Below, piece by piece: positions 10,270 through 36,915 of a DNA stretch of 64,000 nt. Source of the DNA: a virus. The notes under the pieces were generated by a model. That model had not been told where the DNA came from. It worked only from the letters and a program-made list of their open reading frames with translations, and ran no database searches. The position numbers and the translations under genes are program-made. The stretch spans positions 1 to 64,000 of the IMG/VR virus record IMGVR_UViG_3300043409_001491; one strand, written 5' to 3'. How positions within the stretch are numbered: position 1 is the stretch's first letter; each line of letters begins with the position of its first letter.

Positions 10270-10554
10270 ATGAAACAACATTTGTGGAAAGATGAAGCAG
10301 CCTGCCTTGGACTTGATACTAATATATTTTTTGATAAGTATGAAGAAGTTCTTGATGTCCGTCCAATTGTAGACTCAATGTGCCAACGATGCCCAGTAGC
10401 AAATATTTGTTTTGCCAACGGTGTTTCTGGCAAAGAGTATGGTGTTTGGGGTGGTGTATTCCTTGAACTGGGAAATATATCTAGAGAGTTTAACAAACAT
10501 AAAACAAAGCAGGACTGGGCCAATACCTGGCAGTCACTGACAATGGAGAAATAA
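10270..10554 (+). CDS. WhiB-family iron-sulfur transcription factor
   Basis: 94 residues. Four cysteines with WhiB spacing: Cys12, Cys38-x2-Cys41-x5-Cys47 (MCQRCPVANIC), followed by the G[VI]WGG turn (GVWGGVFL). Known role: binds a 4Fe-4S cluster and interacts with actinobacterial sigma-A. WhiB-like proteins are actinobacteria- and actinophage-specific, so this is strong host evidence. It lacks the long basic C-terminal DNA-binding tail of some members. It may redirect host RNA polymerase or interfere with host WhiB proteins. Confidence 0.93.
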   Translation: MKQHLWKDEAACLGLDTNIFFDKYEEVLDVRPIVDSMCQRCPVANICFANGVSGKEYGVWGGVFLELGNISREFNKHKTKQDWANTWQSLTMEK

Positions 10555-23680: not shown

Positions 23681-24300
23681 GGTTTGACATAGTTATCCAC
23701 AGGTGGGAGGCGTGGTTTGATAGAGTTATCCACAGATTTACTATAGTTATCCACAGGTTAAATGTTACTGATATTTTTTAGATTTATCTTAAAGTGGAGC
23801 AAAGTGGAGGATAGTGGGTTATTGGGCGTTTATACAGATGGCGTCGTAATGTCTAACAGCGGCCAAACCTCCTATCATAAAACCTTCACATTGTCAAACC
23901 TTACAAACCTTGGCATTATACCCCCAAACCTCCCATTTGTCAACTCTAAAACCCTACACAAAATGGCAGAAAATGTCCAATAAAATCATATAAAGGTTTG
24001 ATAATATTGATAATATCTAGAAAACCAGGGAAAAATATATAGTCTTCGTAATGTCTTTTAACCTATAGGGTTTGGTATATCTTCTGATCCCCGCCTGCAA
24101 ATGTGTAACAGGATTAGGACTTATGCTGGCGCCGCAGGACCGCCAAAATGCGGCGGTATAAAGAAGGATACGATTTACTCCTAGTATAACTACGAGAGTT
24201 ACCAAACCTTGCAAAGTATCTTTTAGGCATACAATAATTATACACTGGTTTGAAGGTTTGTCCATGAATCTGGAAAAATTATAAAAAGATCGTAATGTTT
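23681..24300. other. Candidate replication origin (gene-free, DnaA boxes and iterated hexamers)
   Basis: About 620 bp without a convincing gene. Holds three perfect DnaA boxes TTATCCACA (23693, 23726, 23747), the first two in repeated GGTTTGAYAKAGTTATCCACAG modules 33 bp apart; eleven GGTTTG/CAAACC hexamers; an AT-rich direct repeat (TTGATAATA twice, near 23998-24017); a perfect ACCGCC/GGCGGT hairpin (24139-24157); and two copies of a GGGAAAAAT-N10-CGTAATG element. These are the usual parts of an iteron or DnaA-dependent origin. Open frames at 23762-23983 (+) and 24017-24265 (-) look like chance. Confidence 0.6.
23693..23755 (+). promoter_or_regulatory. Cluster of three DnaA boxes
   Basis: Three exact TTATCCACA nonamers at 23693-23701, 23726-23734 and 23747-23755, spaced 33 and 21 bp. 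Same orientation. Further boxes lie at 32877-32885 (+), 35604-35612 (-) and 35646-35654 (-). Confidence 0.8.
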
Positions 24301-26863: not shown

Positions 26864-26892
26864 ATTATAGTGGTTTGGGCTGACAGGGTCAA
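26864..26892 (-). promoter_or_regulatory. Leftward promoter with TGTCAG spacer motif
   Basis: Minus-strand TTGACC, 17-bp spacer containing TGTCAG and CAAACC, then TATAAT. A CRP-like palindrome lies at 26903-26918, 11 bp beyond the -35. Confidence 0.8.
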
Positions 26893-26902
26893 GTTCTACA
26901 GG

Positions 26903-26918
26903 TGTGATGTTGGTCACT
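26903..26918. promoter_or_regulatory. CRP/GlxR-like operator
   Basis: TGTGA-N6-TCACT, one base from the consensus TGTGA-N6-TCACA. Upstream of promoter 26864-26892 and overlapping the end of gene 26914-27015. Confidence 0.65.
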
Positions 26919-27015
26919 TCCCTGGACAGTTCATGTGAAAGTATACTATTAGCATATGCTCAGGATCTGTTGTGGTTGCTCCACATGTGTTACAGGACCA
27001 AGATTGTTTAGCCAT
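26914..27015 (-). CDS. 33-residue CxxC microprotein
   Basis: MAKQSWSCNTCGATTTDPEH, then LIVYFHMNCPGK: CNTC and one late Cys. Coupled to the gene upstream (TAATG). Confidence 0.55.
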   Translation of the reverse strand: MAKQSWSCNTCGATTTDPEHMLIVYFHMNCPGK

Positions 27016-27089
27016 TAGCAGTCCTCACATAGTACATCGCCATAAGGAATAGATTTGCCACACTCACAACACCAAGACTCATCTTTCAT
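27015..27089 (-). CDS. 24-residue zinc-knuckle peptide
   Basis: MKDESWCCECGKSIPYGDVL then CEDC: a complete four-Cys zinc knuckle in only 24 residues. Ends at the start of the next gene. Confidence 0.5.
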   Translation of the reverse strand: MKDESWCCECGKSIPYGDVLCEDC

Positions 27090-27094
27090 CCCCA

Positions 27095-27253
27095 TTAATC
27101 AAAGTACCCTTCTGCCCATAGCCCCTGGAGAAACTCTCTAGTAGTAACTAGGTAGTTATAGATAGCAGGGTGCTCATCAGAGTTGATTAATAGTATAGCG
27201 TTATCAACACCATATGTCATGTTGTTTAAGTCTTCTAATTCATAGCCTAACAT
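27095..27253 (-). CDS. 52-residue acidic protein
   Basis: MLGYELEDLNNMTYGVDNAI, then YLVTTREFLQGLWAEGYFD. Unknown. Confidence 0.6.
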   Translation of the reverse strand: MLGYELEDLNNMTYGVDNAILLINSDEHPAIYNYLVTTREFLQGLWAEGYFD

Positions 27254-27257
27254 TAGC

Positions 27258-27416
27258 CTACCCCCAGTATTCTAAGATAGTTTGCATGGTAGTATGTATT
27301 ACGCAGTCACAGTCTCCACCCATGTTATCCATGAATTCAAGATGTGAGTAGTTGTCGTTGTAGATTTCATCTACGAGTTCGCTTATTGTGTATGGTTTGA
27401 ATGTTGTTTGAGTCAT
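27258..27416 (-). CDS. 52-residue protein
   Basis: MTQTTFKPYTISELVDEIYN, then MGGDCDCVIHTTMQTILEYW. CDC pair. First gene after promoter 27423-27451. Confidence 0.62.
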   Translation of the reverse strand: MTQTTFKPYTISELVDEIYNDNYSHLEFMDNMGGDCDCVIHTTMQTILEYWG

Positions 27417-27422
27417 GTATTA

Positions 27423-27451
27423 ATTATCGCATGAAACTGGGAAAATGTCAA
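27423..27451 (-). promoter_or_regulatory. Leftward promoter
   Basis: Minus-strand TTGACA, 17-bp spacer starting TTTTCCCAG, then GATAAT. CATTACG sits 6 bp upstream of the -35, making a bipartite element also seen at 24028, 24271 and 24621. Confidence 0.78.
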
Positions 27452-27537
27452 CTCTTCCGTAATGAAGATTTGAGAAAAATAACACTGTTACGTAATAAGA
27501 GTTGTAACAAAATGTTATAAAACCCGAGCCAACCTTG

Positions 27538-27611
27538 CGATTCCAACGGGACTTGAACCCGTAGCCTCTACCGTGACAGGGTAGCGATCTAACCAATTGA
27601 TCTATGGAATC
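27538..27611 (-). tRNA. tRNA-Asp (GTC)
   Basis: Acceptor GATTCCA/TGGAATC, anticodon stem CTACC/GGTAG with loop CTGTCAC (GTC), T-arm ACGGG/CCCGT. CCA not encoded. Confidence 0.95.
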
Positions 27612-27614
27612 TTG

Positions 27615-27636
27615 CGAGCAGTTTTAAATCTTGCTC
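27615..27636 (-). terminator. Hairpin with A-rich loop after the DUF932 gene
   Basis: Minus strand GAGCA-(AGATTTAAAAC)-TGCTC between the DUF932 stop and tRNA-Asp. Same hairpin family as at 29516, 30113 and 32915; weak stem, so it may serve RNA processing rather than termination. Confidence 0.45.
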
Positions 27637-27647
27637 AGGATTTTTTA

Positions 27648-28664
27648 CTATGCGAGTTGCATTACATTCTGTACAACTTTTAGCAAACGATTTTTTTCTG
27701 CATTGATAGCAGGGTCAAATCCGCTTGCACTTGCTAGGATTGATTCATTAGAACCACCACGAGCAGAACGATACCAATCAAGACGCTCAGTTAGCGCATT
27801 GAAAGCACCCCACGCATTACCAGCAATCATGCCGTTATATTCGCCAGTGTAAATGTCATTGATAACATCTATTTTGTTTTCCCACTTCTTTACAGCACCC
27901 TTAGAATCTTTTTCAGGTTTTGCATAAGCAGCAAGAATAATATCGTTGAATTGCTTGGCAGAAACTTCTTTTTCAATCATAGCCTTAGCCATGATATCAA
28001 ATGCGTCCATGTACTTGTTAGCCATGCCAAGGGTCTCACGAGCAACTTGCACCTTACCGCTTGCAGTTTGTGTGTGACGAATCTTGAATGATTGCTTTAC
28101 GCCACCCTTGACTTTTTTCTGATTAAGTGCAAGATTGAGAGTGTTAGCGCATACTACACGAACAGGTGTGATACTTGCTTGAATAGCGATAGAACCATCG
28201 TGTGATGTATTGATAAGCAAATAAGTCTTTACCTTATCTGCAACACCGCTAGGGTCTAGAATTGTCTCACGCTCTAGTGCAAGAGAACCAAATACAACAC
28301 GTCCACCCTTGATTGCGCCAGCAGTTTCCCAACGTCCACCACCATCTAGAATGTTATCACCAAATGAGAATAAATCTTCATTCTGCATTACATGGTAACG
28401 CTCACCAACAACACCAAGAATGTCTGTCTGTGAATTATCTGTAGGGTTAGTACGCAATACATATTGATATTGTTTATCACTTGTTAAGTGTGATGGAGTA
28501 ATCATATCCTCTAGACGAACATTCCAGCCATTAAGATTTGCTGCTTCCAGCATTTCGATAGTAGATTTTTCTTCTGTGAATACGGTACCCAATCCATGCC
28601 AAGCAGGCTCACGGAAAGAGGCGAAAGATTCTTTTCCGTTTTGTGTTTCTATGTCATGTGCCAT
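27648..28664 (-). CDS. DUF932 / TIGR03299-type phage-plasmid protein
   Basis: 338 residues from the ATG at 28664 (AGGAAAAAACTC upstream); the frame continues to 28727 without a good start. Motifs of the DUF932 family: EPAWHGLGTVF near the start, LGVVGERYHVMQNEDLFSFG, then PVRVVCANTLNLAL and GMIAGNAWGAFNALTERLDW. Widespread in phages and plasmids, with no settled biochemical function; sometimes adjacent to recombination or replication genes. Largest gene of this early block. Confidence 0.9.
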   Translation of the reverse strand: MAHDIETQNGKESFASFREPAWHGLGTVFTEEKSTIEMLEAANLNGWNVRLEDMITPSHLTSDKQYQYVLRTNPTDNSQTDILGVVGERYHVMQNEDLFSFGDNILDGGGRWETAGAIKGGRVVFGSLALERETILDPSGVADKVKTYLLINTSHDGSIAIQASITPVRVVCANTLNLALNQKKVKGGVKQSFKIRHTQTASGKVQVARETLGMANKYMDAFDIMAKAMIEKEVSAKQFNDIILAAYAKPEKDSKGAVKKWENKIDVINDIYTGEYNGMIAGNAWGAFNALTERLDWYRSARGGSNESILASASGFDPAINAEKNRLLKVVQNVMQLA

Positions 28665-28698
28665 GAGTTTTTTCCTTTTCTGTTGATTGTTTATACTA

Positions 28699-28727
28699 AG
28701 TTTAGCAGACAGGGCTGACAAAGTCAA
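28699..28727 (-). promoter_or_regulatory. Leftward promoter with TGTCAG spacer motif
   Basis: Minus-strand TTGACT, 17-bp spacer with TGTCAG, TAAACT, upstream of the DUF932 gene. Confidence 0.68.
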
Positions 28728-28783
28728 ATCGTCCTAGCAGACAGGGGACAATCTGGACATTTCTTAAAGTGTCGTAAATCACA

Positions 28784-28799
28784 TGTGATCTTGGTCACA
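28784..28799. promoter_or_regulatory. CRP/GlxR-like operator
   Basis: Exact TGTGA-N6-TCACA upstream of the DUF932 promoter, followed on the plus strand by CCCCCCGAG. Confidence 0.75.
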
Positions 28800-28871
28800 C
28801 CCCCCGAGTTTTTTATGGCAAAAAAATTAAGCAGTTTACATGGCCATGCTCAGGGCCCTTGCCTAGTTTAA

Positions 28872-28888
28872 AGACATTCGGCATGTCT
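28872..28888 (-). terminator. Hairpin after gene 28904-29329
   Basis: Minus strand AGACAT-GCCGA-ATGTCT followed by TTAAA. Short stem; moderate terminator. Confidence 0.5.
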
Positions 28889-28903
28889 ATTAGTAGCCCC
28901 CTA

Positions 28904-29329
28904 CTAAATATCTATTCTGTCAACACTGGCTGACAACCAAGAAATATTATCTGAGTTATATTGAACGGTATCAAAATCAATATCGTGAATTGTATTCTGT
29001 GCAGACTCCTCATCACGAGCATTAACTGTAACTGAATAAAGAACTGTAACTTCTAGTTCAAATTCTTTAGTTAGTTCAAAGCCCATAATTTCAGCAATTT
29101 GTTCTGCTTGAGATTCAGAGATATCTTCATTCTCTAATTCTTTAAGGGTCCAGTCTTGCATTCCCTCAACCATACGGTTACGGTCTGCAGAATCTGTATA
29201 TGAACGTTGTGTTACTTTTTGGATGTGCTCTTCAAGATTAGCAATGCGCTCATCCTTGATTTGAATCTGAGACTTAAGAAAGTCTTCTGTAGCATTTATG
29301 ATTGTTACTGATGTTTCTGCTTGGTCCAT
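28904..29329 (-). CDS. Hypothetical protein with N-terminal coiled coil
   Basis: 141 residues from the ATG at 29329 (AAAGAGG upstream). Coiled-coil region DERIANLEEHIQKVTQ, an acidic linker, then a beta-type C-terminal domain FELEVTVLYSVTVNARDEES similar in style to other small phage proteins. Unknown. Confidence 0.65.
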   Translation of the reverse strand: MDQAETSVTIINATEDFLKSQIQIKDERIANLEEHIQKVTQRSYTDSADRNRMVEGMQDWTLKELENEDISESQAEQIAEIMGFELTKEFELEVTVLYSVTVNARDEESAQNTIHDIDFDTVQYNSDNISWLSASVDRIDI

Positions 29330-29360
29330 GAGGGGCCTCTTTCTGTAGTTGGTTAGTTTA

Positions 29361-29390
29361 ATTATACCGCTGGCCACTGACATTTGTCAA
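29361..29390 (-). promoter_or_regulatory. Leftward promoter with TGTCAG spacer motif
   Basis: Minus-strand TTGACA, 18-bp spacer with TGTCAG, TATAAT. Serves gene 28904-29329. Confidence 0.75.
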
Positions 29391-29417
29391 GGGCCCTGGA
29401 TCCTGGGAAAAGGGGTA

Positions 29418-29500
29418 GATGGCGGTGTGCCGTTATGACTCAATACCCTTTGGTTAAAGGGTCACACTCTTACCTATGCCGTCGGAACGGACAGACCATC
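29418..29500 (-). ncRNA. Candidate multibranched structured RNA
   Basis: Nested complementary segments: closing GATGG/CCATC (29418-29422 with 29496-29500), GTGTG/CACAC (29425-29429 with 29463-29467), a perfect ACCCTTT/AAAGGGT hairpin with a GGTT loop (29445-29462), and CCGT/ACGG (29479-29490). It lies in a 260-bp space between a terminator and the next promoter. Strand is uncertain; no protein frame explains it. Confidence 0.45.
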
Positions 29501-29515
29501 ATTTAATTGTATGAG

Positions 29516-29538
29516 CAGTTTTGATACTTACTCAGGTA
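29516..29538 (-). other. Hairpin of the AAAAC-loop family, inside a short Cys-rich frame
   Basis: Minus strand GAGTA-(AGTATCAAAAC)-TGCTC. The surrounding bases can be read as TNCKKCNYLSKYQNCSYN before a stop, a zinc-ribbon-like peptide, but no usual start codon precedes it, so coding is doubtful. Confidence 0.35.
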
Positions 29539-29615
29539 ATTGCACTTCTTGCAGTTGGTGCGAACTGGCTCTATAGTATTTCTATTATCGCCCTAATCAG
29601 CCTGGCGAAAGTTGA

Positions 29616-29635
29616 GGGAGGTTTTTACGCCTCCC
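29616..29635 (-). terminator. Terminator hairpin after gene 29646-30068
   Basis: GGGAGG-(CGTAAAAA)-CCTCCC on the minus strand, 11 bp after the stop. Strong stem with an A-rich loop; followed by a modest T content. Confidence 0.68.
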
Positions 29636-29645
29636 CCAATTTCAT

Positions 29646-30068
29646 TTATAGGTATTGTGCGATTGCGTTGTAAGTTGAGGTATTTACTGTTTCCTCATCT
29701 GTCATCTTTAACAGACGAATTGCATTTGAGATTTCTTTCTTTGACTCACGATAAGAGTGTTGATGGATTACTTCGTATTCCTTCTCAGGCTCTTGTGGCA
29801 AATCTTTTTCTGCAACTGTCAAATCAAAGTCAATGTTTAGATTGTTTGAGTATGAGCGATAGTTAGTGCGGAAGTTTTCTGCCTTCTCTATGTTTGCTAC
29901 GGCATAAGAAATAAGTTCTTTCTTATACACATCATAAGCCATCTGATACTTTGCTTCTTTTGCGTTTTGTGTTGCGTAGTCTGCTTCTAGTGTAGCAAGT
30001 GCTTGCTCTAGTCCTGCGATTACACGAACTGTTGGGATTTTTACATTTATTGCTTTTGCTCTAGCCAT
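29646..30068 (-). CDS. Conserved hypothetical protein
   Basis: 140 residues: MARAKAINVKIPTVRVIAGL opens a beta-like region, then a long helical stretch EADYATQNAKEAKYQMAYDV, ending in a charged region with HQHSYRESKKEISNAIRLL. Clear AAAGAGATAAACAG upstream. Unknown function. Confidence 0.68.
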   Translation of the reverse strand: MARAKAINVKIPTVRVIAGLEQALATLEADYATQNAKEAKYQMAYDVYKKELISYAVANIEKAENFRTNYRSYSNNLNIDFDLTVAEKDLPQEPEKEYEVIHQHSYRESKKEISNAIRLLKMTDEETVNTSTYNAIAQYL

Positions 30069-30112
30069 CTGTTTATCTCTTTTCTTTGGTGGTTTGTTAG
30101 TGGGGGTGGTGT

Positions 30113-30138
30113 GAGCAGTTTTGCACAGACATACTCAG
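30113..30138 (-). terminator. Hairpin of the AAAAC-loop family
   Basis: Minus strand GAGTA-N14-TGCTC with loop ending CAAAAC, 16 bp after the stop of gene 30154-30318. Confidence 0.4.
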
Positions 30139-30153
30139 GTCTTTTGTTTTAGA

Positions 30154-30318
30154 TTACTTTGCTGTCCAAGTTGTGTAGCGAGTGTTACCTTCTACATTTA
30201 ACTTAACACGAACATTTCCGTTAGCAAGAGTTGTGATTTCCTCAATGACTCCTGTTACCTTTGACTTTTGAGTTGTGTAGGTATCTCCTACGCGATAGGT
30301 TGCGGTTGCTACTGACAT
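30154..30318 (-). CDS. 54-residue beta-rich protein
   Basis: From the ATG at 30318 (AAGAAGGAAATC upstream): MSVATATYRVGDTYTTQKSK, then ITTLANGNVRVKLNVEGNTR. Looks like a small beta-barrel of KOW or SH3 style. Unknown role. Confidence 0.65.
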   Translation of the reverse strand: MSVATATYRVGDTYTTQKSKVTGVIEEITTLANGNVRVKLNVEGNTRYTTWTAK

Positions 30319-30349
30319 GATTTCCTTCTTTCTGTTTGGTTGATATTTA

Positions 30350-30379
30350 AGTATAACATTTCCTACTGACATTTTGCAA
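30350..30379 (-). promoter_or_regulatory. Leftward promoter with TGTCAG spacer motif
   Basis: Minus-strand TTGCAA, 18-bp spacer with TGTCAG, TATACT, upstream of gene 30154-30318. Confidence 0.68.
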
Positions 30380-30420
30380 ATCCTACCCTAACATTTCTCA
30401 CTATGTGAGATGACTAGGGG

Positions 30421-30436
30421 TGTGATTTGGGTCACT
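30421..30436. promoter_or_regulatory. CRP/GlxR-like operator
   Basis: TGTGA-N6-TCACT, centred about 85 bp upstream of the predicted start of the 30318 transcript. Confidence 0.65.
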
Positions 30437-30500
30437 TTTTATGCCCCATGCCTGCGAATAGAATAATGATAAATAATACAGTTAAGATTAAGATTTCCAC
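30432..30500 (-). CDS. Possible 22-residue membrane peptide
   Basis: GTG start; reads VEILILTVLFIIILFAGMGH then KK (GTG as Met): one strongly hydrophobic helix with a Lys tail. It follows the gp88 gene and overlaps the operator. Confidence 0.4.
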   Translation of the reverse strand: MEILILTVLFIIILFAGMGHKK

Positions 30501-30506
30501 TTAGCC

Positions 30507-31229
30507 TCATTTCTTAGTTGCAGAAAAAACTATGTCTGCTTTAGAGTATACACACAATGAGCAAGAAACGCAAGCGGAGCCTTTTGTACTGATTAGAGGT
30601 ATCTGCCTATTATTCTCAGGACACTTCGCGGCAGGGCGATTAGTAAGTGCCTTCATGTCTGCTTGTCCTATTAGAAAGTTTTTAGCAAGGTATGCAAGAC
30701 GAATGCCATGATCATTTTTCAGGGTAACGCCAATAGACTTATTCTCACTATCTGTGGAATAATATAAAGATAGATTAGCAATGTCCTTAAGCATAACAGC
30801 GGCAGACTTAACTCTAGTGTATACCCAGAATTGTATATTAGTATTGTTAAGGATGATATTCTTCCATGCTTGTGTATAAGTATCATTGAAGAAATCTCCG
30901 TCCCAGTGGATACGGAATAGTTTTGGGGCATTGCGTTTATCACAGTCAATAATAAACTCATCTATCATTTGAGTTAATAACACCTGCATGGTGTCAAGGT
31001 CTGCGTCTTTGAGTAATTCCCAGTTATGCAATAAGTTTTTCTTTACCGCTGGGAAGACCTTTTCCAATTTGCCTGCATAGCAAACAGTCTCACAGACAGT
31101 AGTTGCGCCAGGACATGAATAGGCCTTTCCTGCTGGTAATCCGAAAGTGTTGGCGATACTTGCTTGTTTTCCATTTGGTGTGACGGCATTGGCTACTTTC
31201 CTATCTTTGCTTCTAAGTAATTTAGTCAT
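30507..31229 (-). CDS. Gp88-family actinophage protein
   Basis: 240 residues. Cysteine motif YSCPGATTVCETVCYAGK near residue 38, FRIHWDGDFFNDTYTQAW in the middle, and a C-terminal cysteine cluster KGSACVSCSLCVY. This matches the mycobacteriophage gene product 88 family (PF17338 type), whose cysteines could hold a metal or Fe-S centre. The function is not known. It supports an actinobacterial host. Confidence 0.87.
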   Translation of the reverse strand: MTKLLRSKDRKVANAVTPNGKQASIANTFGLPAGKAYSCPGATTVCETVCYAGKLEKVFPAVKKNLLHNWELLKDADLDTMQVLLTQMIDEFIIDCDKRNAPKLFRIHWDGDFFNDTYTQAWKNIILNNTNIQFWVYTRVKSAAVMLKDIANLSLYYSTDSENKSIGVTLKNDHGIRLAYLAKNFLIGQADMKALTNRPAAKCPENNRQIPLISTKGSACVSCSLCVYSKADIVFSATKK

Positions 31230-31235
31230 GGTGGG

Positions 31236-31379
31236 TTACTCGCTTTCTTGTTCTAATTCTACTACAGGGGACTGACAAATATTCTTTCTAGAATAAGTTT
31301 TCTTTGAAGGCACAGCCGTAGCAGCGTTAGACCTACGTAATTCCATAAGTCTACGTAATTCTTCAGGTGTTTTCTTCAT
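31236..31379 (-). CDS. 47-residue basic helical protein
   Basis: MKKTPEELRRLMELRRSNAA, then KKTYSRKNICQSPVVELEQE. The DNA that encodes the last third also carries the TGTCAG motif found in leftward promoters, so a promoter for the gp88 gene may be embedded in it. Confidence 0.62.
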   Translation of the reverse strand: MKKTPEELRRLMELRRSNAATAVPSKKTYSRKNICQSPVVELEQESE

Positions 31380-31384
31380 ACTTA

Positions 31385-31413
31385 ATTTTAGCAGAAATGG
31401 GAAAAAATGTCAA
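31385..31413 (-). promoter_or_regulatory. Leftward promoter
   Basis: Minus-strand TTGACA, 17-bp spacer (TTTTTTCCC...), TAAAAT, close to the ATG at 31379. Confidence 0.75.
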
Positions 31414-31446
31414 CTTACGTAAACGACACGCCCAGTGCGCCCGAGG

Positions 31447-31473
31447 TTTTTTATGCGGGGAAGTGCATAAAAA
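31447..31473 (-). terminator. Terminator after gene 31486-31716
   Basis: TTTTTATGC / GCATAAAAA stem with an eight-base loop, followed by A/T bases and CCTCGGG on the minus strand. Confidence 0.65.
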
Positions 31474-31485
31474 CTTTAGTAATTA

Positions 31486-31716
31486 TTATTCTTCAAAAAA
31501 TACATACCACTCAATAGTTTCATCATCAAATAAATAAACATGACCCTCTTCATTAAAATCATTTCTAGTGTAAATATTAAATCCATCTGCATTTTCTGTA
31601 ATGGTTTCAATAGTTACACATTCATCATCAACCTTAATTAGATCGCCTTCCATAAGTTGAGAGGGCAATAAGTTATCAGCAAATCTAAGTTCCATGCTGT
31701 TTATTGTATCAGACAT
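31486..31716 (-). CDS. Acidic hypothetical protein
   Basis: 76 residues from the ATG at 31716 (GAGGATTGAA upstream): MSDTINSMELRFADNLLPSQ, then LIKVDDECVTIETITENADG, a small beta protein. Unknown. Confidence 0.62.
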   Translation of the reverse strand: MSDTINSMELRFADNLLPSQLMEGDLIKVDDECVTIETITENADGFNIYTRNDFNEEGHVYLFDDETIEWYVFFEE

Positions 31717-31717
31717 T

Positions 31718-31993
31718 TCAATCCTCATCTACTGGGTCAATGAACCAATTAAGGTGGTGTTGGTCTACAATCGCTCTTGCTGGTGCGTGACTCATACCCT
31801 TATAGAATACGCCTTCAGGCATAGCAATAAATCTTTCATAGTCCTCATCATAGTAAGCGTCAATAGCCTCAATACAAGGCTGAACCATAGAAAGTGGTAC
31901 TGGTGGATAGTGATTACCCCGTAAGTGATACGCTAATTGCGTTTCTAAATCTAATACTGTATCTTTGATACCTAGTGCTGTTACGCTTCCCAT
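31718..31993 (-). CDS. Conserved hypothetical protein
   Basis: 91 residues: TVLDLETQLAYHLRGNHYPP followed by VPLSMVQPCIEAIDAYYDED, then ARAIVDQHHLNWFID. The LRGNHYPPVP segment recurs in actinophage small proteins as far as I recall. One-base overlap with the next gene. Confidence 0.68.
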   Translation of the reverse strand: MGSVTALGIKDTVLDLETQLAYHLRGNHYPPVPLSMVQPCIEAIDAYYDEDYERFIAMPEGVFYKGMSHAPARAIVDQHHLNWFIDPVDED

Positions 31994-32211
31994 TATTTAC
32001 TTACGACCTTTCGTCCTTCACGATAGAAAGTGGTGGTGTGCATTTTTCCATTAGGCTCTGATAGATTAACTGTTGCGTATTCATCAGCCATTCCCCAATC
32101 AGTAAACGATAGATAAGACTTTACTGCATCAAGTGCGTTGTCATAGCGACCAATCCAATGAGGCGACCTATCTCCGTCATAGGTGTTTGTTACTGAATAT
32201 AGATATTCCAT
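31993..32211 (-). CDS. Hypothetical protein
   Basis: 72 residues: MEYLYSVTNTYDGDRSPHWI, then GRYDNALDAVKSYLSFTDWG. Alpha/beta. TAATG coupling with both neighbours. Confidence 0.65.
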   Translation of the reverse strand: MEYLYSVTNTYDGDRSPHWIGRYDNALDAVKSYLSFTDWGMADEYATVNLSEPNGKMHTTTFYREGRKVVSK

Positions 32212-32393
32212 TATGCATTCTCCTTAGTGTATTCATTCATTTCATTCTCAGCATACCATAGGGTGTATTCAATCGCAATCGCTGTACCCTTTTCACAATC
32301 GTTGCAAAAATCTGTAATAAACTCATTCTTCATTATGAGTCCTTCATCATAGCAAGTGTAGCAAGTGCCAATCTCATCAAATAAGTTTCCCAT
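32211..32393 (-). CDS. 60-residue zinc-ribbon protein
   Basis: GTCYTCYDEGLIMKNEF, then FCNDCEKGTAIAIEYTLW: CYTC and CNDC pairs. Coupled to both neighbours by single-base overlaps. Confidence 0.68.
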   Translation of the reverse strand: MGNLFDEIGTCYTCYDEGLIMKNEFITDFCNDCEKGTAIAIEYTLWYAENEMNEYTKENA

Positions 32394-32503
32394 TATTTAT
32401 ACTCCTTAACGCAATTAGTGCAAATAGAATAGTTAGTGCAATAGCATGATTTCGCATTAGGGCGAAGCATATCTGTTTCATAGTAGTCATCATAGAAATC
32501 CAT
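32393..32503 (-). CDS. 36-residue Cys-rich microprotein
   Basis: MDFYDDYYETDMLRPNAKSC then YCTNYSICTNCVKEYK: five Cys, including CTNC. Acidic, Tyr-rich start. Confidence 0.58.
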   Translation of the reverse strand: MDFYDDYYETDMLRPNAKSCYCTNYSICTNCVKEYK

Positions 32504-32504
32504 A

Positions 32505-32735
32505 TTAGTCCCCTACCTTTACTGCAATCGTAGCATAAAAATCTTCCTTGGGCAAATCAGGGAACCCACGATAGGTAGGGCGTACTGTTACAAGATAGGC
32601 TTCAGCATTATGAAAATAAATATTTTCACGCTTTTCTGCATACTGTATAATTCCTTCCAAGCCTCTACGCTTTAGAGAGTGTGAGCGATAATACTTACCT
32701 TCAAGTAAATCTGTTATTGTGTATTCTGTAGCCAT
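32505..32735 (-). CDS. Hypothetical protein
   Basis: 76 residues: MATEYTITDLLEGKYYRSHS, then RRGLEGIIQYAEKRENIYFH, ending in a beta strand. Unknown. AAAGAGG upstream. Confidence 0.65.
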   Translation of the reverse strand: MATEYTITDLLEGKYYRSHSLKRRGLEGIIQYAEKRENIYFHNAEAYLVTVRPTYRGFPDLPKEDFYATIAVKVGD

Positions 32736-32777
32736 AGGGGCGACCTCTTTCTTTAGTTAATTTATTATTACTCTGTA

Positions 32778-32802
32778 ATCCTACCATGGCAGGCTGACAA
32801 AA
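32778..32802 (-). promoter_or_regulatory. Leftward promoter of the TGTCAG class
   Basis: Minus-strand TTGTCAG then TAGGAT 10-11 bp later; a weak -35 (TTAGAT) is 19 bp before the -10. Serves the run 32735 to 31486. Confidence 0.5.
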
Positions 32803-32848
32803 ATCTAATTACTAGCCAGTAGTCTTAAATAATGAGACGCTCAAGGAT

Positions 32849-32864
32849 TGTGAGAAAAATCACA
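32849..32864. promoter_or_regulatory. CRP/GlxR-like operator
   Basis: Exact TGTGA-N6-TCACA between a DnaA box palindrome and the promoter at 32778. Confidence 0.75.
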
Positions 32865-32876
32865 TCGTACGTAAAG

Positions 32877-32893
32877 TTATCCACAGCCTGTGG
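32877..32893 (+). promoter_or_regulatory. DnaA box within a CCACAG/CTGTGG palindrome
   Basis: TTATCCACA (32877-32885) continues into CCACAGCCTGTGG, a perfect inverted repeat. A near copy with TTATACACA is at about 34066-34082. Confidence 0.65.
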
Positions 32894-32914
32894 AAAACCC
32901 CCCGAGAAAATATT

Positions 32915-32935
32915 GAGCAGTTTTATATCTTGCTC
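32915..32935 (-). terminator. Terminator-like hairpin of the AAAAC-loop family
   Basis: Minus strand GAGCA-(AGATATAAAAC)-TGCTC then AATATTTTCTCGGGG, 11 bp after the stop of gene 32947-33096. Confidence 0.55.
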
Positions 32936-32946
32936 AGGATTTTATT

Positions 32947-33096
32947 TTATTTGTTGCGTTCATCTCGCAATTTAAGTTGCAGCCTGCGAATTTCTTTCTG
33001 TTGTTCAATGTTGTGTTTCCAAAATACAAGCATCATTGAAAGAGATCCAGCAAGTGCAATTACAATTGCAATAAGTGTTCCAGTGTCAAGAATCAT
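32947..33096 (-). CDS. 49-residue membrane protein
   Basis: MILDTGTLIAIVIALAGSLS and MMLVFWK form one transmembrane helix; then a basic coiled helix EQQKEIRRLQLKLRDERNK. Start overlaps the gene upstream (ATGA). Spanin- or anchor-like plan, function unknown. Confidence 0.65.
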   Translation of the reverse strand: MILDTGTLIAIVIALAGSLSMMLVFWKHNIEQQKEIRRLQLKLRDERNK

Positions 33097-33275
33097 ACTG
33101 TTTCCATCTCCTTAACGCAAGCATCCCAAAATCTTGTTTCATCAAATCTTGGATTGTCTGCACTAAACCACTCGCTGAATTCAAAAACTAAATCTTGAAA
33201 TACGTGTGAGTCAATAGTATCTGCAAACTGGTTTAGAATTTTTGCAGTTTCTACATAGTCTTTGCGTGTCATCAT
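33093..33275 (-). CDS. 60-residue conserved phage protein
   Basis: TRKDYVETAKILNQFADTID, then EFSEWFSADNPRFDETRFWD: helical. Similar short proteins occur in many actinophages; unknown function. Confidence 0.66.
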   Translation of the reverse strand: MMTRKDYVETAKILNQFADTIDSHVFQDLVFEFSEWFSADNPRFDETRFWDACVKEMETV

Positions 33276-33481
33276 TAGTTGGCCACCTTTAGAATTGCAT
33301 AAGAGCCATTTTCATTTATTTCATCAAGGGCTGGCTGAATTCTTGGCGCAAGTAAATCTTTTAGCATTGACTCTAGCATTTGAATTTGCATTGACTCTGA
33401 AAGTCTAAGCAGTTGCATTCCTACTGGGTGAGTTTCGTCAACCTCTGTTACGAAGTGAAGTGAGTGAGGTATTTTTACCAT
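33275..33481 (-). CDS. 68-residue helical protein
   Basis: LHFVTEVDETHPVGMQLLRL, then MQIQMLESMLKDLLAPRIQP. Coupled to the next gene. Unknown. Confidence 0.65.
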   Translation of the reverse strand: MVKIPHSLHFVTEVDETHPVGMQLLRLSESMQIQMLESMLKDLLAPRIQPALDEINENGSYAILKVAN

Positions 33482-33501
33482 GTTTTTTATTTCCTATTCT
33501 T

Positions 33502-33657
33502 TTAGTTGGATTCAGGGGTATTGAATAAATTAAGGTCTTGCTCTAGTGAAAAATCACATTCGCAAGTTTCTACATCAAAATCATTAGCGTTACCAAAAAA
33601 TAGTAACCCTGTTGAATTGCATTCCTCGCAAGGAATTGTTAGGACTGAGTTTATCAT
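33502..33657 (-). CDS. 51-residue zinc-binding protein
   Basis: MINSVLTIPCEECNSTGLLF, then DVETCECDFSLEQDLNLF: CEEC...CEC. The start overlaps the stop of the gene upstream. Confidence 0.64.
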   Translation of the reverse strand: MINSVLTIPCEECNSTGLLFFGNANDFDVETCECDFSLEQDLNLFNTPESN

Positions 33658-33842
33658 TATACTAAGGCCTTCCCTCTAAGTGTTCCACGAATACCAAGCA
33701 AGTCGCATGATACTTTTACAGATACGCCAACAGGTAGCGCATTAGGATAGTTAGAGATAAAATCTGCAACCTGTCCTCTAGTTGATAGGGGAATTGTTTT
33801 TACTGAACCTGAATAGGTTTCTAGTTTTATAGTGTAAGTCAT
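33657..33842 (-). CDS. 61-residue beta-rich protein
   Basis: MTYTIKLETYSGSVKTIPLS, then ISNYPNALPVGVSVKVSCDL. Unknown. GAAAGGAAG upstream. Confidence 0.64.
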   Translation of the reverse strand: MTYTIKLETYSGSVKTIPLSTRGQVADFISNYPNALPVGVSVKVSCDLLGIRGTLRGKALV

Positions 33843-33875
33843 TTGGTGACTTCCTTTCGTTTTAGTGATAAGACT

Positions 33876-33898
33876 ATCTTACCATTAGGGGCTGACAT
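33876..33898 (-). promoter_or_regulatory. Leftward promoter of the TGTCAG class
   Basis: Minus-strand ATGTCAG then TAAGAT; no TTGACA. The CRP-like site 33926-33941 is centred about 64 bp upstream of the predicted start. Confidence 0.5.
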
Positions 33899-33908
33899 TT
33901 TAGGGCAT

Positions 33909-33959
33909 TTATTCGCTAGGCTCATTGTGATACTGGTCACACTTATTTGCTAGGCTCAT
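33909..33959. repeat. 17-bp direct repeats flanking a CRP-like site
   Basis: TTATTCGCTAGGCTCAT (33909-33925) and TTATTTGCTAGGCTCAT (33943-33959), one mismatch, sit either side of an exact TGTGA-N6-TCACA (33926-33941). Confidence 0.8.
33926..33941. promoter_or_regulatory. CRP/GlxR-like operator
   Basis: Exact TGTGA-N6-TCACA between two 17-bp direct repeats. Confidence 0.75.
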
Positions 33960-33984
33960 GCCCTTATTTAATTGTTATAAGGCA

Positions 33985-34060
33985 AGTATAGCAAAAAAAT
34001 ATCAAGAAAGCAAATCGACACGCCGTAAATCAGGGGAATAGTAGTGTGATCTTAACCACA
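33985..34060 (-). promoter_or_regulatory. Second leftward promoter module with operator
   Basis: Minus strand in order: TGTGG-N6-TCACA (34045-34060, one base off the CRP consensus), CGGCGTGTCG (34016-34025), then TATACT (33985-33990) with a weak TTTGCT -35. The order matches the two rightward modules at 35670-35735 and 35887-35952. Confidence 0.6.
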
Positions 34061-34097
34061 TAAGTTATACACAGGCTGTGGAAAACCCCGAGCAAAA

Positions 34098-34122
34098 ATT
34101 GCAGAGTTTTTATTTCTGCAAT
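34098..34122 (-). terminator. Rho-independent terminator
   Basis: Minus strand ATTGCAGA-(AATAAAAAC)-TCTGCAAT followed by TTTTTGCTCGGGG; 8-bp perfect stem after gene 34132-34197. Confidence 0.8.
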
Positions 34123-34131
34123 CTTTTTTAT

Positions 34132-34197
34132 TTATGCTCCGTTATGAAACCAAACTACAAGAGCAGTGCAAGTCATAGCAATAAGAATAACTATCAT
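34132..34197 (-). CDS. 21-residue membrane peptide
   Basis: MIVILIAMTCTALVVWFHNG and a final A: one transmembrane helix. It follows the gene upstream immediately, just before a terminator. Confidence 0.5.
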   Translation of the reverse strand: MIVILIAMTCTALVVWFHNGA

Positions 34198-34287
34198 TTA
34201 TTTATTCTCAATCTCATCTAATAGTTCCCAAAGTATTGGCTCTAATTCTTTAGCAGCCAAATCTAATTTATCTTGTAAGGTTTTCAT
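34198..34287 (-). CDS. 29-residue acidic helix
   Basis: MKTLQDKLDLAAKELEPILW and nine more residues. Directly abuts both neighbouring genes. Unknown. Confidence 0.5.
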   Translation of the reverse strand: MKTLQDKLDLAAKELEPILWELLDEIENK

Positions 34288-34452
34288 TTATTTAACTCCC
34301 TTGTATAGAAAATCCCAAGCCTTACGGCAGATTAAAATTGAACGGCAGTTATCACAACAGATAACACCATGGGGGTTAAGGTCTAAGTCATAGACATCAA
34401 CAGAGGCAGAAGACTTACCACATACAGAAGCAAGGTTTAGAAATGTACTCAT
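34288..34452 (-). CDS. 54-residue Cys-containing protein
   Basis: Cys pattern C-x24-CCDNC-x6-C: FLNLASVCGKSSASVDVYDL, then GVICCDNCRSILICRKAWDF. Resembles small actinobacterial zinc proteins. ATGA overlap upstream. Confidence 0.65.
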   Translation of the reverse strand: MSTFLNLASVCGKSSASVDVYDLDLNPHGVICCDNCRSILICRKAWDFLYKGVK

Positions 34453-34622
34453 TTAGTTAAATACCAATCTGTCCACATAGGTAGACGCTCAGGGTCATGG
34501 TCGCCATAGTAGCGCTCAATATTTTGTTCACAATCTTGGCAGAAAGTAAATTGCTCATCTCCTACTGAGGAGATAGCGGAAAGCATAGGATTATGCTCTT
34601 TACATATTGTTGAGATAGTCAT
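34449..34622 (-). CDS. 57-residue Cys-containing protein
   Basis: MTISTICKEHNPMLSAISSV, FTFCQDCEQNIERYYGDHDP, then LPMWTDWY. C-x-x-H and CQDC suggest one zinc site. Confidence 0.65.
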   Translation of the reverse strand: MTISTICKEHNPMLSAISSVGDEQFTFCQDCEQNIERYYGDHDPERLPMWTDWYLTK

Positions 34623-34789
34623 TACTTGACCCCCTCAAACAATTCTTTACACTTGTTAGGATTTTCCCACCAAGTGAAACCTGCGTGATACTTAGCAGGG
34701 GCGAGGACAACCTGTCCACAAGGGCAGAGGTTCATTACACCTCTAGGGTAATCGCTAACAGTAGCGAACTTTTCAAACAATGAATTCAT
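34622..34789 (-). CDS. 55-residue CPC protein
   Basis: MNSLFEKFATVSDYPRGVMN, then LCPCGQVVLAPAKYHAGFTW. CPCG and a late Cys. AAAGGAATTC upstream. Confidence 0.64.
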   Translation of the reverse strand: MNSLFEKFATVSDYPRGVMNLCPCGQVVLAPAKYHAGFTWWENPNKCKELFEGVK

Positions 34790-34844
34790 TTTGAATTCCT
34801 TTCTTTAGAGGATTTCTTTACCTCTTGTTTTTCTTTATACTGTA

Positions 34845-34868
34845 ATTGTAGCAGGGGGGACTGACAAA
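34845..34868 (-). promoter_or_regulatory. Leftward promoter of the TGTCAG class
   Basis: Minus-strand TTTGTCAG then TACAAT; no TTGACA. The CRP-like site at 34905-34920 is about 74 bp upstream of the predicted start. Confidence 0.5.
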
Positions 34869-34904
34869 TTGGGGGGTTACTGGCCAGTATTTTAAAACTA
34901 TTTT

Positions 34905-34920
34905 TGTGATACTCGTCACA
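34905..34920. promoter_or_regulatory. CRP/GlxR-like operator
   Basis: Exact TGTGA-N6-TCACA, next to a terminator and CTCGGG. Confidence 0.75.
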
Positions 34921-34936
34921 TTTACCCGAGCAAAAA

Positions 34937-34958
34937 ATCGTAGGTTTTATTCTACGAT
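34937..34958 (-). terminator. Rho-independent terminator
   Basis: ATCGTAG-(AATAAAAC)-CTACGAT then TTTTTTGCTCGGG on the minus strand; plus-strand reading also ends in a T-run, so it may work both ways. Confidence 0.8.
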
Positions 34959-34965
34959 CTTTTTT

Positions 34966-35079
34966 TTATTTAGAATAACTTCCAGATTTTATTAGCAAGT
35001 CTAACTTTTTTGCTAGTGGGTCAATGTATTCATCTTCCCAAAAGTTTTCTATTTCTAGTTTTTCTACATAGTCTCTCAT
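34966..35079 (-). CDS. 37-residue acidic helical protein
   Basis: MRDYVEKLEIENFWEDEYID and PLAKKLDLLIKSGSYSK. Abuts the gene upstream. Unknown. Confidence 0.58.
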   Translation of the reverse strand: MRDYVEKLEIENFWEDEYIDPLAKKLDLLIKSGSYSK

Positions 35080-35247
35080 TTAGTTCTCCTCTCTTTCTAG
35101 TAGGAATAAATTGTTTAGTGTTTGATTAGCACGATTAAGAGTGTTGAGCAATTCACGATTAGCGAACGCTTGGCGTTCCTCAGCATACTTAGCCTGTTGG
35201 GCTAGTCGCAATTCCTCTAAGCGAGGGGATAGTTTAGGGTTAGTCAT
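35080..35247 (-). CDS. 55-residue coiled-coil protein
   Basis: MTNPKLSPRLEELRLAQQAK, then RELLNTLNRANQTLNNLFLL: long amphipathic helices with heptad spacing. Confidence 0.62.
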   Translation of the reverse strand: MTNPKLSPRLEELRLAQQAKYAEERQAFANRELLNTLNRANQTLNNLFLLEREEN

Positions 35248-35251
35248 TTAC

Positions 35252-35476
35252 TTATTCCCAACTTCTACTAGTAGCGTACACCTTGCGATTGCTAGGTGTG
35301 TAGTTAGGTAACTCAGTTAGAGCAACCTCTAGGATAGTACCTTGTAAGGCTACTATGTCTAAGTATTCGTTAGCGTAGACTTCGCTAGGTACTACTAGAG
35401 TAGTTGTACTAAACTCTCTTGAGAGAGGATAGTTTGGGTTAGAGTTATACTCTACCTTGTATTTTAGTGAAAACAT
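35252..35476 (-). CDS. 74-residue beta-rich protein
   Basis: MFSLKYKVEYNSNPNYPLSR, then VVPSEVYANEYLDIVALQGT. First leftward gene from the divergent control region. AAAGGAAAAC upstream. Confidence 0.65.
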   Translation of the reverse strand: MFSLKYKVEYNSNPNYPLSREFSTTTLVVPSEVYANEYLDIVALQGTILEVALTELPNYTPSNRKVYATSRSWE

Positions 35477-35527
35477 TTTGTTTTCCTTTCTTTATCAAGA
35501 ACCTTTCTTGATTTTCTTTATACTAGT

Positions 35528-35550
35528 ATTATAACACCTACCACTGACAT
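35528..35550 (-). promoter_or_regulatory. Leftward promoter of the TGTCAG class
   Basis: Minus-strand ATGTCAG, then TATAAT (35528-35533). Starts the leftward block. Confidence 0.62.
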
Positions 35551-35589
35551 TTAGGGGTGTACAAAACGGACATATGGTACATATGCCAC

Positions 35590-35654
35590 TGTGACATACA
35601 TCATGTGGATAACTTGAGCGTGTTTTAAGGGTGTGATGTGCGTCATGTGGATAA
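35590..35654. promoter_or_regulatory. Two degenerate CRP-like sites overlapping two DnaA boxes
   Basis: TGTGA-N6-TCATG at 35590-35605 and again at 35632-35647; each runs into TGTGGATAA (DnaA box on the minus strand, 35604-35612 and 35646-35654). The two 23-bp units are direct repeats 42 bp apart. Confidence 0.65.
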
Positions 35655-35669
35655 CTACCCGAGCCAAAA

Positions 35670-35735
35670 TGTGAGGTAGATCACATGCAGGATACGGCGT
35701 GTCGCCTTGACTTTTAGGGGTATCTATGTTATACT
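35670..35735 (+). promoter_or_regulatory. Rightward promoter module 1
   Basis: Exact TGTGA-N6-TCACA (35670-35685), then ACGGCGTGTCGCC with a GGCG/CGCC dyad, then TTGACT (35707-35712), 17-bp spacer and TATACT (35730-35735). Operator centre is about 64 bp before the predicted start, class I CRP geometry. Confidence 0.75.
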
Positions 35736-35780
35736 TCTAGTATTAGATAGTTAAAGTATAACTATAAAGAAAGGTTCAAA

Positions 35781-35891
35781 ATGAACACTATAGAAAAAAA
35801 TGAGGCTCTCGCTCAGACACCTGAGCAGACCCTAGCAGACTATGCTAGATTAGACGCACTTATCGCTAAGGGTACCTACTCAGATAAGTGA
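35781..35891 (+). CDS. 36-residue protein
   Basis: MNTIEKNEALAQTPEQTLAD, then YARLDALIAKGTYSDK, helical and acidic. AAAGGTTCAAA upstream. First rightward gene; its stop overlaps the next operator. Confidence 0.6.
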   Translation: MNTIEKNEALAQTPEQTLADYARLDALIAKGTYSDK

Positions 35892-35952
35892 CCTATATCA
35901 CACCACGCCAACGGCGTGTCGCCTTGACTTTTCAGGGGATATAGGATACCCT
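35887..35952 (+). promoter_or_regulatory. Rightward promoter module 2
   Basis: AGTGA-N6-TCACA (35887-35902), then ACGGCGTGTCGCC, TTGACT (35924-35929), 17-bp spacer and TACCCT (35947-35952). Same order and spacing as module 1, so it is a duplicated unit. Confidence 0.68.
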
Positions 35953-36777: not shown

Positions 36778-36915
36778 ATGGCTATATTAAACAACCTAGA
36801 TAACGACAAACCACTATTTGAAACAGAATCATCTTCTCTGGCTATAAAGGTTTTTTCAGAAACCTGTTGCAATGGATGTTCTTGCAAATCTGAATCAGAT
36901 CACAAACCAGTATAA
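36778..36915 (+). CDS. 45-residue Cys-containing protein
   Basis: MAILNNLDNDKPLFETESSS, then VFSETCCNGCSCKSESDHKP: four Cys in CCNGCSC. Possible metal site. Confidence 0.58.
   Translation: MAILNNLDNDKPLFETESSSLAIKVFSETCCNGCSCKSESDHKPV

Follow-up and report, generated by a model that had tools for sequence, protein, structure and literature searches.

A 64,000-nucleotide stretch of viral DNA, comprising positions 1 to 64,000 of the 105,901-base IMG/VR record IMGVR_UViG_3300043409_001491 and referred to here as the window, carries in its early region a series of palindromes of the form TGTGA-N6-TCACA, which resemble the operators of CRP/GlxR-family regulators. What is new here is that the spacing between palindrome and early promoter is quantised. 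Such phasing is, as judged from the sequences, the mark of an activator in contact with RNA polymerase, and the palindromes are probably operators of a host regulator of the CRP/GlxR family, which would activate the phage early promoters through contact with the polymerase. This suggests that a host master regulator turns on viral early genes in a large family of freshwater actinobacterial viruses; CRP binding, activation and the identity of the host are what we infer from sequence comparison. A literature search, which left most subscription journals outside its reach, found no precedent for GlxR/CRP operators in phage early promoters.

The first-pass annotation of the window had listed eleven TGTGA-N6-TCACA-like sites, all of which were recovered at the positions given there (Table 1). 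Five of them match all ten bases, as it had claimed (28784, 32849, 33926, 34905, and 35670), while the sites differing by one base number four rather than three (26903, 30421, 34045, and 35887) and two differ by two bases (35590 and 35632). A twelfth site with one mismatch, at 36889, had been overlooked, and its membership in the set is not clear. The complete 105.9-kb record contains five exact copies, all within 28.8-35.7 kb and none in the remainder, and no match to a reversed-motif control. With two mismatches allowed, the window holds 39 sites against 39.9 by chance, and significance is therefore carried by the strong sites alone.

The motif recurs in related viruses. In 80 related viral loci, obtained by searching with the DUF932 protein encoded at 27648-28727 of the window, 391 exact copies were counted, the highest number among the palindromes of 5-mers separated by six bases, the next having 66. 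When all 5-mer palindromes with gaps of 3-8 were compared, TGTGA with a gap of 6 was by far the commonest, and its arms, when set at another gap, gave 0-5 copies. All 24 whole records searched contain the motif, with 2-9 copies each and no control matches. In a divergent relative (L292), whose DUF932 protein is 53% identical, four perfect and three near-perfect sites were found, most of them preceding TGTCAG promoters in the same layout as in the window. A chance origin of the palindromes is ruled out by the exact-site counts in the record, the 80 loci, and the 24 records set against their controls. The six-base gap favours T-N-T-A-N-A, and this is also the preference of CRP/GlxR sites in their inner six bases; the palindrome and its central TA preference are together those of a CRP/GlxR operator. 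Exact sites are depleted in open reading frames of at least 80 amino acids (38 of 282, against 155 expected) and never cover the core promoter, which bears out the earlier placement of the sites between genes and before promoters.

The early promoters of this phage family have a characteristic form, consisting of A/T followed by TGTCAG, a ten-base stretch that in many cases has TGn at its end, and a -10 hexamer. The loci contain 601 copies of TGTCAG-N10-TAnnnT, compared with at most 81 at neighbouring spacings, and the window holds nine leftward promoters of the TGTCAG type within 26.8-35.6 kb. In WTGTCAG-N10-TATAAT promoters the TGTCAG element lies at about -28 to -23 and the -35 region is weak. 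In 1.2 Mb of candidate-host chromosome this promoter form was found eight times, twice in intergenic DNA, with no enrichment; because it is so scarce there, it looks like a phage element. It is possibly similar to a MotA box. A second box, TGTCCG, stands between the palindrome and TGTCAG in several promoters (L292; about 35566 in the window), as in the Streptomyces relatives.

The spacing between palindrome and promoter was measured from the start of the palindrome to the start of the -10 hexamer or of TGTCAG, in scans open to all gaps equally over a 31-bp range. Two scans of the viral collection, pooled with the relatives, yielded 615 pairs of palindrome and TGTCAG and 414 of palindrome and TATAAT. 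Distances to TGTCAG cluster at 44, 54, 64/65, and 75, and those to TATAAT at 49, 60, 70, and 80/81, in steps of one helical turn; sites with one mismatch follow the same series, with an extra position at 33/34. When the pairs were grouped by downstream protein (49 groups, 47 of them within the tested range), the phase concentration R at 10.5 bp was 0.60 over the 47 gene families, a value equalled by none of 20,000 jittered sets. Among unique pairs, 303 of 375 are in phase and 55 in antiphase. The commonest difference in spacing between orthologous promoters of different phages is 10-11 bp, and 17 of the 30 families with multiple members show two or more in-phase spacings. Shared descent alone explains the series poorly, since unrelated genes show it too and the spacing at a single gene can change by whole turns. 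Within the window, eight of the eleven sites fall on the series, the others being 28784, 35590, and 35632.

If transcription starts 7 nt after the -10 hexamer, the palindromes are centred near -53.5, -64.5, -74.5, and -85.5, and the centre of about -64 previously given for both rightward sites agrees with this (-64.5). The sites thus lie upstream without overlapping the core promoter and keep helical phase with it, as in class I-type activation. Being clear of the core and on one face of the helix is what activation by contact predicts, whereas a repressor need not keep register. The activator-like geometry first proposed from two promoters of the window is therefore supported, the phasing now being seen across the whole phage family.

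Concerning the protein that may bind these sites, the first-pass annotation had considered either a host CRP or a CRP-like phage factor. For the latter, no cyclic nucleotide monophosphate-binding protein (PF00027), and no CRP gene, was found in the 24 phage records, some of which are fragments. Evidence on the host comes from the phages themselves: genes of the WhiB family, a regulator of the Actinobacteria type, are present in 16 of 18 phage records, one such gene lies in the window, and the host is therefore expected to be actinobacterial. The nearest bacterial contig (L291, 79-80% identity) belongs to a metagenome-assembled genome (MAG) of the Actinomycetota, which indicates a candidate host family that we tentatively take to be Nanopelagicaceae (acI). 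A CRP-type match was obtained in 63 of 81 genomes of this family (G024 and G027-G106), nearly always as a single protein of about 232 amino acids whose gene adjoins nth (endonuclease III). Its best PDB matches are M. tuberculosis CRP and C. glutamicum GlxR, and its recognition helix GASRETVNKALADFA is identical to that of M. tuberculosis CRP (Rv3676). A host devoid of any CRP homologue would have contradicted the original proposal; the candidate family does carry a GlxR orthologue with a matching recognition helix, while its assignment as host is weak. The idea of a CRP/GlxR-type operator upstream of early promoters is thus upheld, with a host rather than a phage CRP favoured, and the host CRP appears to be the best candidate binder of the palindromes.

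However, several observations weigh against a host CRP acting as a class I-type activator. A site of 9/10 or better is missing from about half of the family's TGTCAG promoters, and a minor class with a TGTCAG spacing of 49/50 (L081-L289; about 40 of 375) is displaced from the series by half a helical turn. E. coli class I CRP sites are centred at -61.5, -71.5, and -82.5, and the centres found here lie about 3 bp beyond these positions, as calculated from predicted starts. The host family is assigned from a single 4.7-kb contig binned in one MAG, and other bins containing distant relatives are labelled cyanobacterial and Methylophilaceae; binned relatives are too few to decide the matter, the 296 family genomes yielding one close match and the sample of the phylum no further close one. 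The 81 candidate-host genomes contain only four exact sites, one of them on the phage contig, and near-exact sites gave no clear excess in the candidate host chromosomes that would indicate a CRP regulon. Since the host chromosomes are nearly empty of sites, we infer the specificity of the host CRP from the protein. The three chromosomal sites compare with 18 for the reversed control in the same genomes, but avoidance of the motif by the host is not claimed, as permuted controls vary widely.

The first-pass annotation had further tied the early programme to host cyclic AMP (cAMP), a link that is so far unsupported, doubtful, and possibly wrong. A class III adenylyl cyclase (PF00211), as expected of a host with a cAMP-controlled regulon, was found in none of the 81 candidate-family genomes by a search that does detect that of C. 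glutamicum. M. tuberculosis CRP has been reported to act independently of cAMP (PMC9645806). GlxR of C. glutamicum binds about 100-fold more tightly with cAMP in vitro, but its binding in vivo persists in a cyaB mutant (PMC7026483). A requirement for cAMP may therefore be absent. The retention of CRP in 63 genomes and of the cyclase in none is an observation in its own right, perhaps pointing to a CRP that works without cAMP.

Other explanations of the palindromes were also weighed. A DNA-binding protein of the phage, unrelated to CRP, could bind them and activate or time the early operons: the early proteins are mostly small and without known family, the neighbouring TGTCAG is phage-specific, so that the phage may itself supply at least one further factor, and the motif is not in excess in candidate host genomes. 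We regard this as unlikely, given that the motif is the exact CRP/GlxR operator down to its central TA preference, that it is common to phage lineages of low protein similarity, and that the matching recognition helix belongs to a protein of the candidate host, with a CRP-type gene in none of the 24 records. The many copies in spacers, and an early region that includes a gene similar to gp88 of mycobacteriophage L5, recall the stoperators of that phage, repressor operators which would here shut down early or prophage transcription. Stoperators of L5 are 13 bp long and asymmetric, whereas the sites described here are palindromic, lie clear of the core promoter, and stay in helical phase with the -10 hexamer; moreover, the 25 kb examined of mycobacteriophage KingCyrus, the closest gp88 match, contain no exact motif. 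An origin as stoperators is accordingly very improbable.

A role in replication was considered as well, in which the palindromes and adjacent DnaA boxes would form a control region whose architectural factors are host CRP and DnaA. The DnaA box TTATCCACA is indeed abundant (441 copies in 81 loci, against 16 of the reversed control), and half of the copies lie within 100 bp of a palindrome. Its relation to the promoter is loose, while that of the palindrome is strict; 147 of 231 palindrome promoters lack a DnaA box in the 200 bp upstream, and the sites, one or a few per operon, extend across about 9 kb. Such a role is in our view extremely unlikely, and operators of a host CRP remain the preferred explanation.

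In the mechanism proposed here, a global regulator of the host CRP/GlxR family would bind the palindromes upstream of the early promoters and activate transcription by contacting RNA polymerase, always from one side of the helix and at any of four distances that differ by single turns. As host CRP would already be there at the entry of phage DNA, the early operons of this apparently lytic phage could be switched on with no phage protein needed at the palindromes. A more elaborate scenario, which we put forward only tentatively and hold to be rather improbable as a whole, is that this freshwater actinophage family runs its early programme on cAMP-free CRP of streamlined hosts that kept CRP and lost adenylyl cyclase, with CRP acting jointly with the phage-specific TGTCAG promoter element and with DnaA boxes, and so reads the growth state of the host through CRP and DnaA levels. 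Phage early promoters are commonly viewed as strong and self-sufficient, whereas an apparent dependence on a host global regulator is seen here at many early operons, and dependence on CRP would couple infection to host physiology. Through their quantised spacing, dozens of gene families also document naturally the orientation that actinobacterial CRP must adopt towards RNA polymerase; outside E. coli, little is known of this geometry. In addition, the finding raises the question of the role of CRP in hosts that apparently make no cAMP.

Table 1. Features of the window discussed in the text; distances run from the start of the palindrome to the start of the -10 hexamer.
Feature	Position	Strand	Match	Remarks
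WhiB-family gene (Actinobacteria-type regulator)	10270..10554	+		evidence for actinobacterial host
DnaA boxes TTATCCACA	23693, 23726, 23747, 32877, 39782, 45339	+
DnaA boxes TTATCCACA	35604, 35646	-
CRP/GlxR-like palindrome TGTGATGTTGGTCACT	26903..26918		9/10	leftward -10 at 49 bp
Weaker copy abutting the 28784 palindrome	28768-28783			79 bp to the same leftward -10
CRP/GlxR-like palindrome TGTGATCTTGGTCACA	28784..28799		10/10	leftward -10 at 95 bp
CRP/GlxR-like palindrome	30421..30436		9/10	leftward -10 at 81 bp
CRP/GlxR-like palindrome TGTGAGAAAAATCACA	32849..32864		10/10	leftward -10 at 81 bp
CRP/GlxR-like palindrome TGTGATACTGGTCACA	33926..33941		10/10	leftward -10 at 60 bp
CRP/GlxR-like palindrome TGTGATCTTAACCACA	34045..34060		9/10	leftward TTGCTT-N17-TATACT, -10 at 70 bp (hand count)
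CRP/GlxR-like palindrome TGTGATACTCGTCACA	34905..34920		10/10	leftward -10 at 70 bp
Weaker palindrome	35590..35605		8/10	overlaps DnaA box; leftward -10 at 72 bp
Weaker palindrome	35632..35647		8/10	overlaps DnaA box; no promoter at standard distance
CRP/GlxR-like palindrome TGTGAGGTAGATCACA	35670..35685		10/10	rightward -10 at 60 bp
CRP/GlxR-like palindrome AGTGACCTATATCACA	35887..35902		9/10	rightward -10 at 60 bp
Early promoter TGTCAG-N10-TATAAT	26864..26885	-		served by 26903
Early promoter TGTCAG-N10-TAAACT, DUF932 gene	28699..28720	-		served by 28784
Early promoter TGTCAG-N10-TATACT	30350..30371	-		served by 30421
Early promoter TGTCAG-N10-TAGGAT	32778..32799	-		served by 32849
Early promoter TGTCAG-N10-TAAGAT	33876..33897	-		served by 33926
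Early promoter TGTCAG-N10-TACAAT	34845..34866	-		served by 34905
Early promoter TGTCAG-N10-TATAAT	35528..35549	-		downstream of 35590
Rightward promoter TTGACT-N17-TATACT	35707..35735	+		served by 35670
Rightward promoter TTGACT-N17-TACCCT	35924..35952	+		served by 35887

Three of the DnaA boxes listed in Table 1 lie inside 63 bp (23693-23755) and could mark an origin. A stretch of the form GAGCAGTTTT-N8..11-CTCAGG recurs in the early spacers, as noted by eye at 27613, 29512, 30112, and 32914 of the window; it may be a terminator or a processing hairpin and has no Rfam match. The search for known RNA elements gave a tRNA only.

Among known systems, the closest in operator sequence are the GlxR regulon of C. 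glutamicum and the targets of M. tuberculosis CRP (Rv3676), which share TGTGA-N6-TCACA and whose regulators are orthologous to that of the candidate hosts; GlxR is known to activate selected promoters (PMC3917453, PMC7026483). The operators described here differ in being located in a phage, in a tight array over early operons, and at four quantised spacings, and the candidate hosts differ in having no class III adenylyl cyclase. In E. coli class I promoters of the lac type, the activator site likewise lies upstream of the -35 region at several positions one turn apart, whereas the sites found here are about 3 bp further upstream and mostly serve TGTCAG-N10-TATAAT promoters with a weak -35. The middle promoters of phage T4 offer a resemblance only, with a conserved element (the MotA box) near -28 that could replace the -35 together with a good -10; no MotA-like protein was found, although no search aimed at one was made.

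Within cultured phages, the Stanwilliamsviridae infecting Streptomyces (NootNoot, Bmoc, Jay2Jay, and Karimac) encode DUF932 proteins 48-52% identical to that of the window and have a similar leftward early layout. They also share the promoter spacing, TGTC-N12-TA being found 16 times compared with at most 3 at other spacings. However, their early region has no exact CRP palindrome, and the early spacers of NootNoot (L290, 739-9307) contain repeated copies of another palindrome, TGTCCGG-N-CCGGACA, at the place occupied by CRP sites in the freshwater phages. Sites were absent or at background numbers in KingCyrus, in the Arthrobacter and Gordonia phages examined, and in the Stanwilliamsviridae. 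The cultured Rhodococcus phage Trina, with a DUF932 protein 41% identical, carries exact and near-exact CRP sites in its early spacers and terminal repeat. Its perfect sites are at 861/137263 (terminal repeat), 129621, and 131233, and a further one at 78426 is intragenic and may be due to chance. In the last 39 kb of its genome there are eight sites that have no more than one mismatch, where 1.6 would be expected, and three Trina sites have a -10 hexamer at 49 bp. Trina differs from the freshwater phages in having fewer sites and in that a TGTCAG element is not established; as a cultured phage, it is a possible test system for the activation of early genes by a host CRP.

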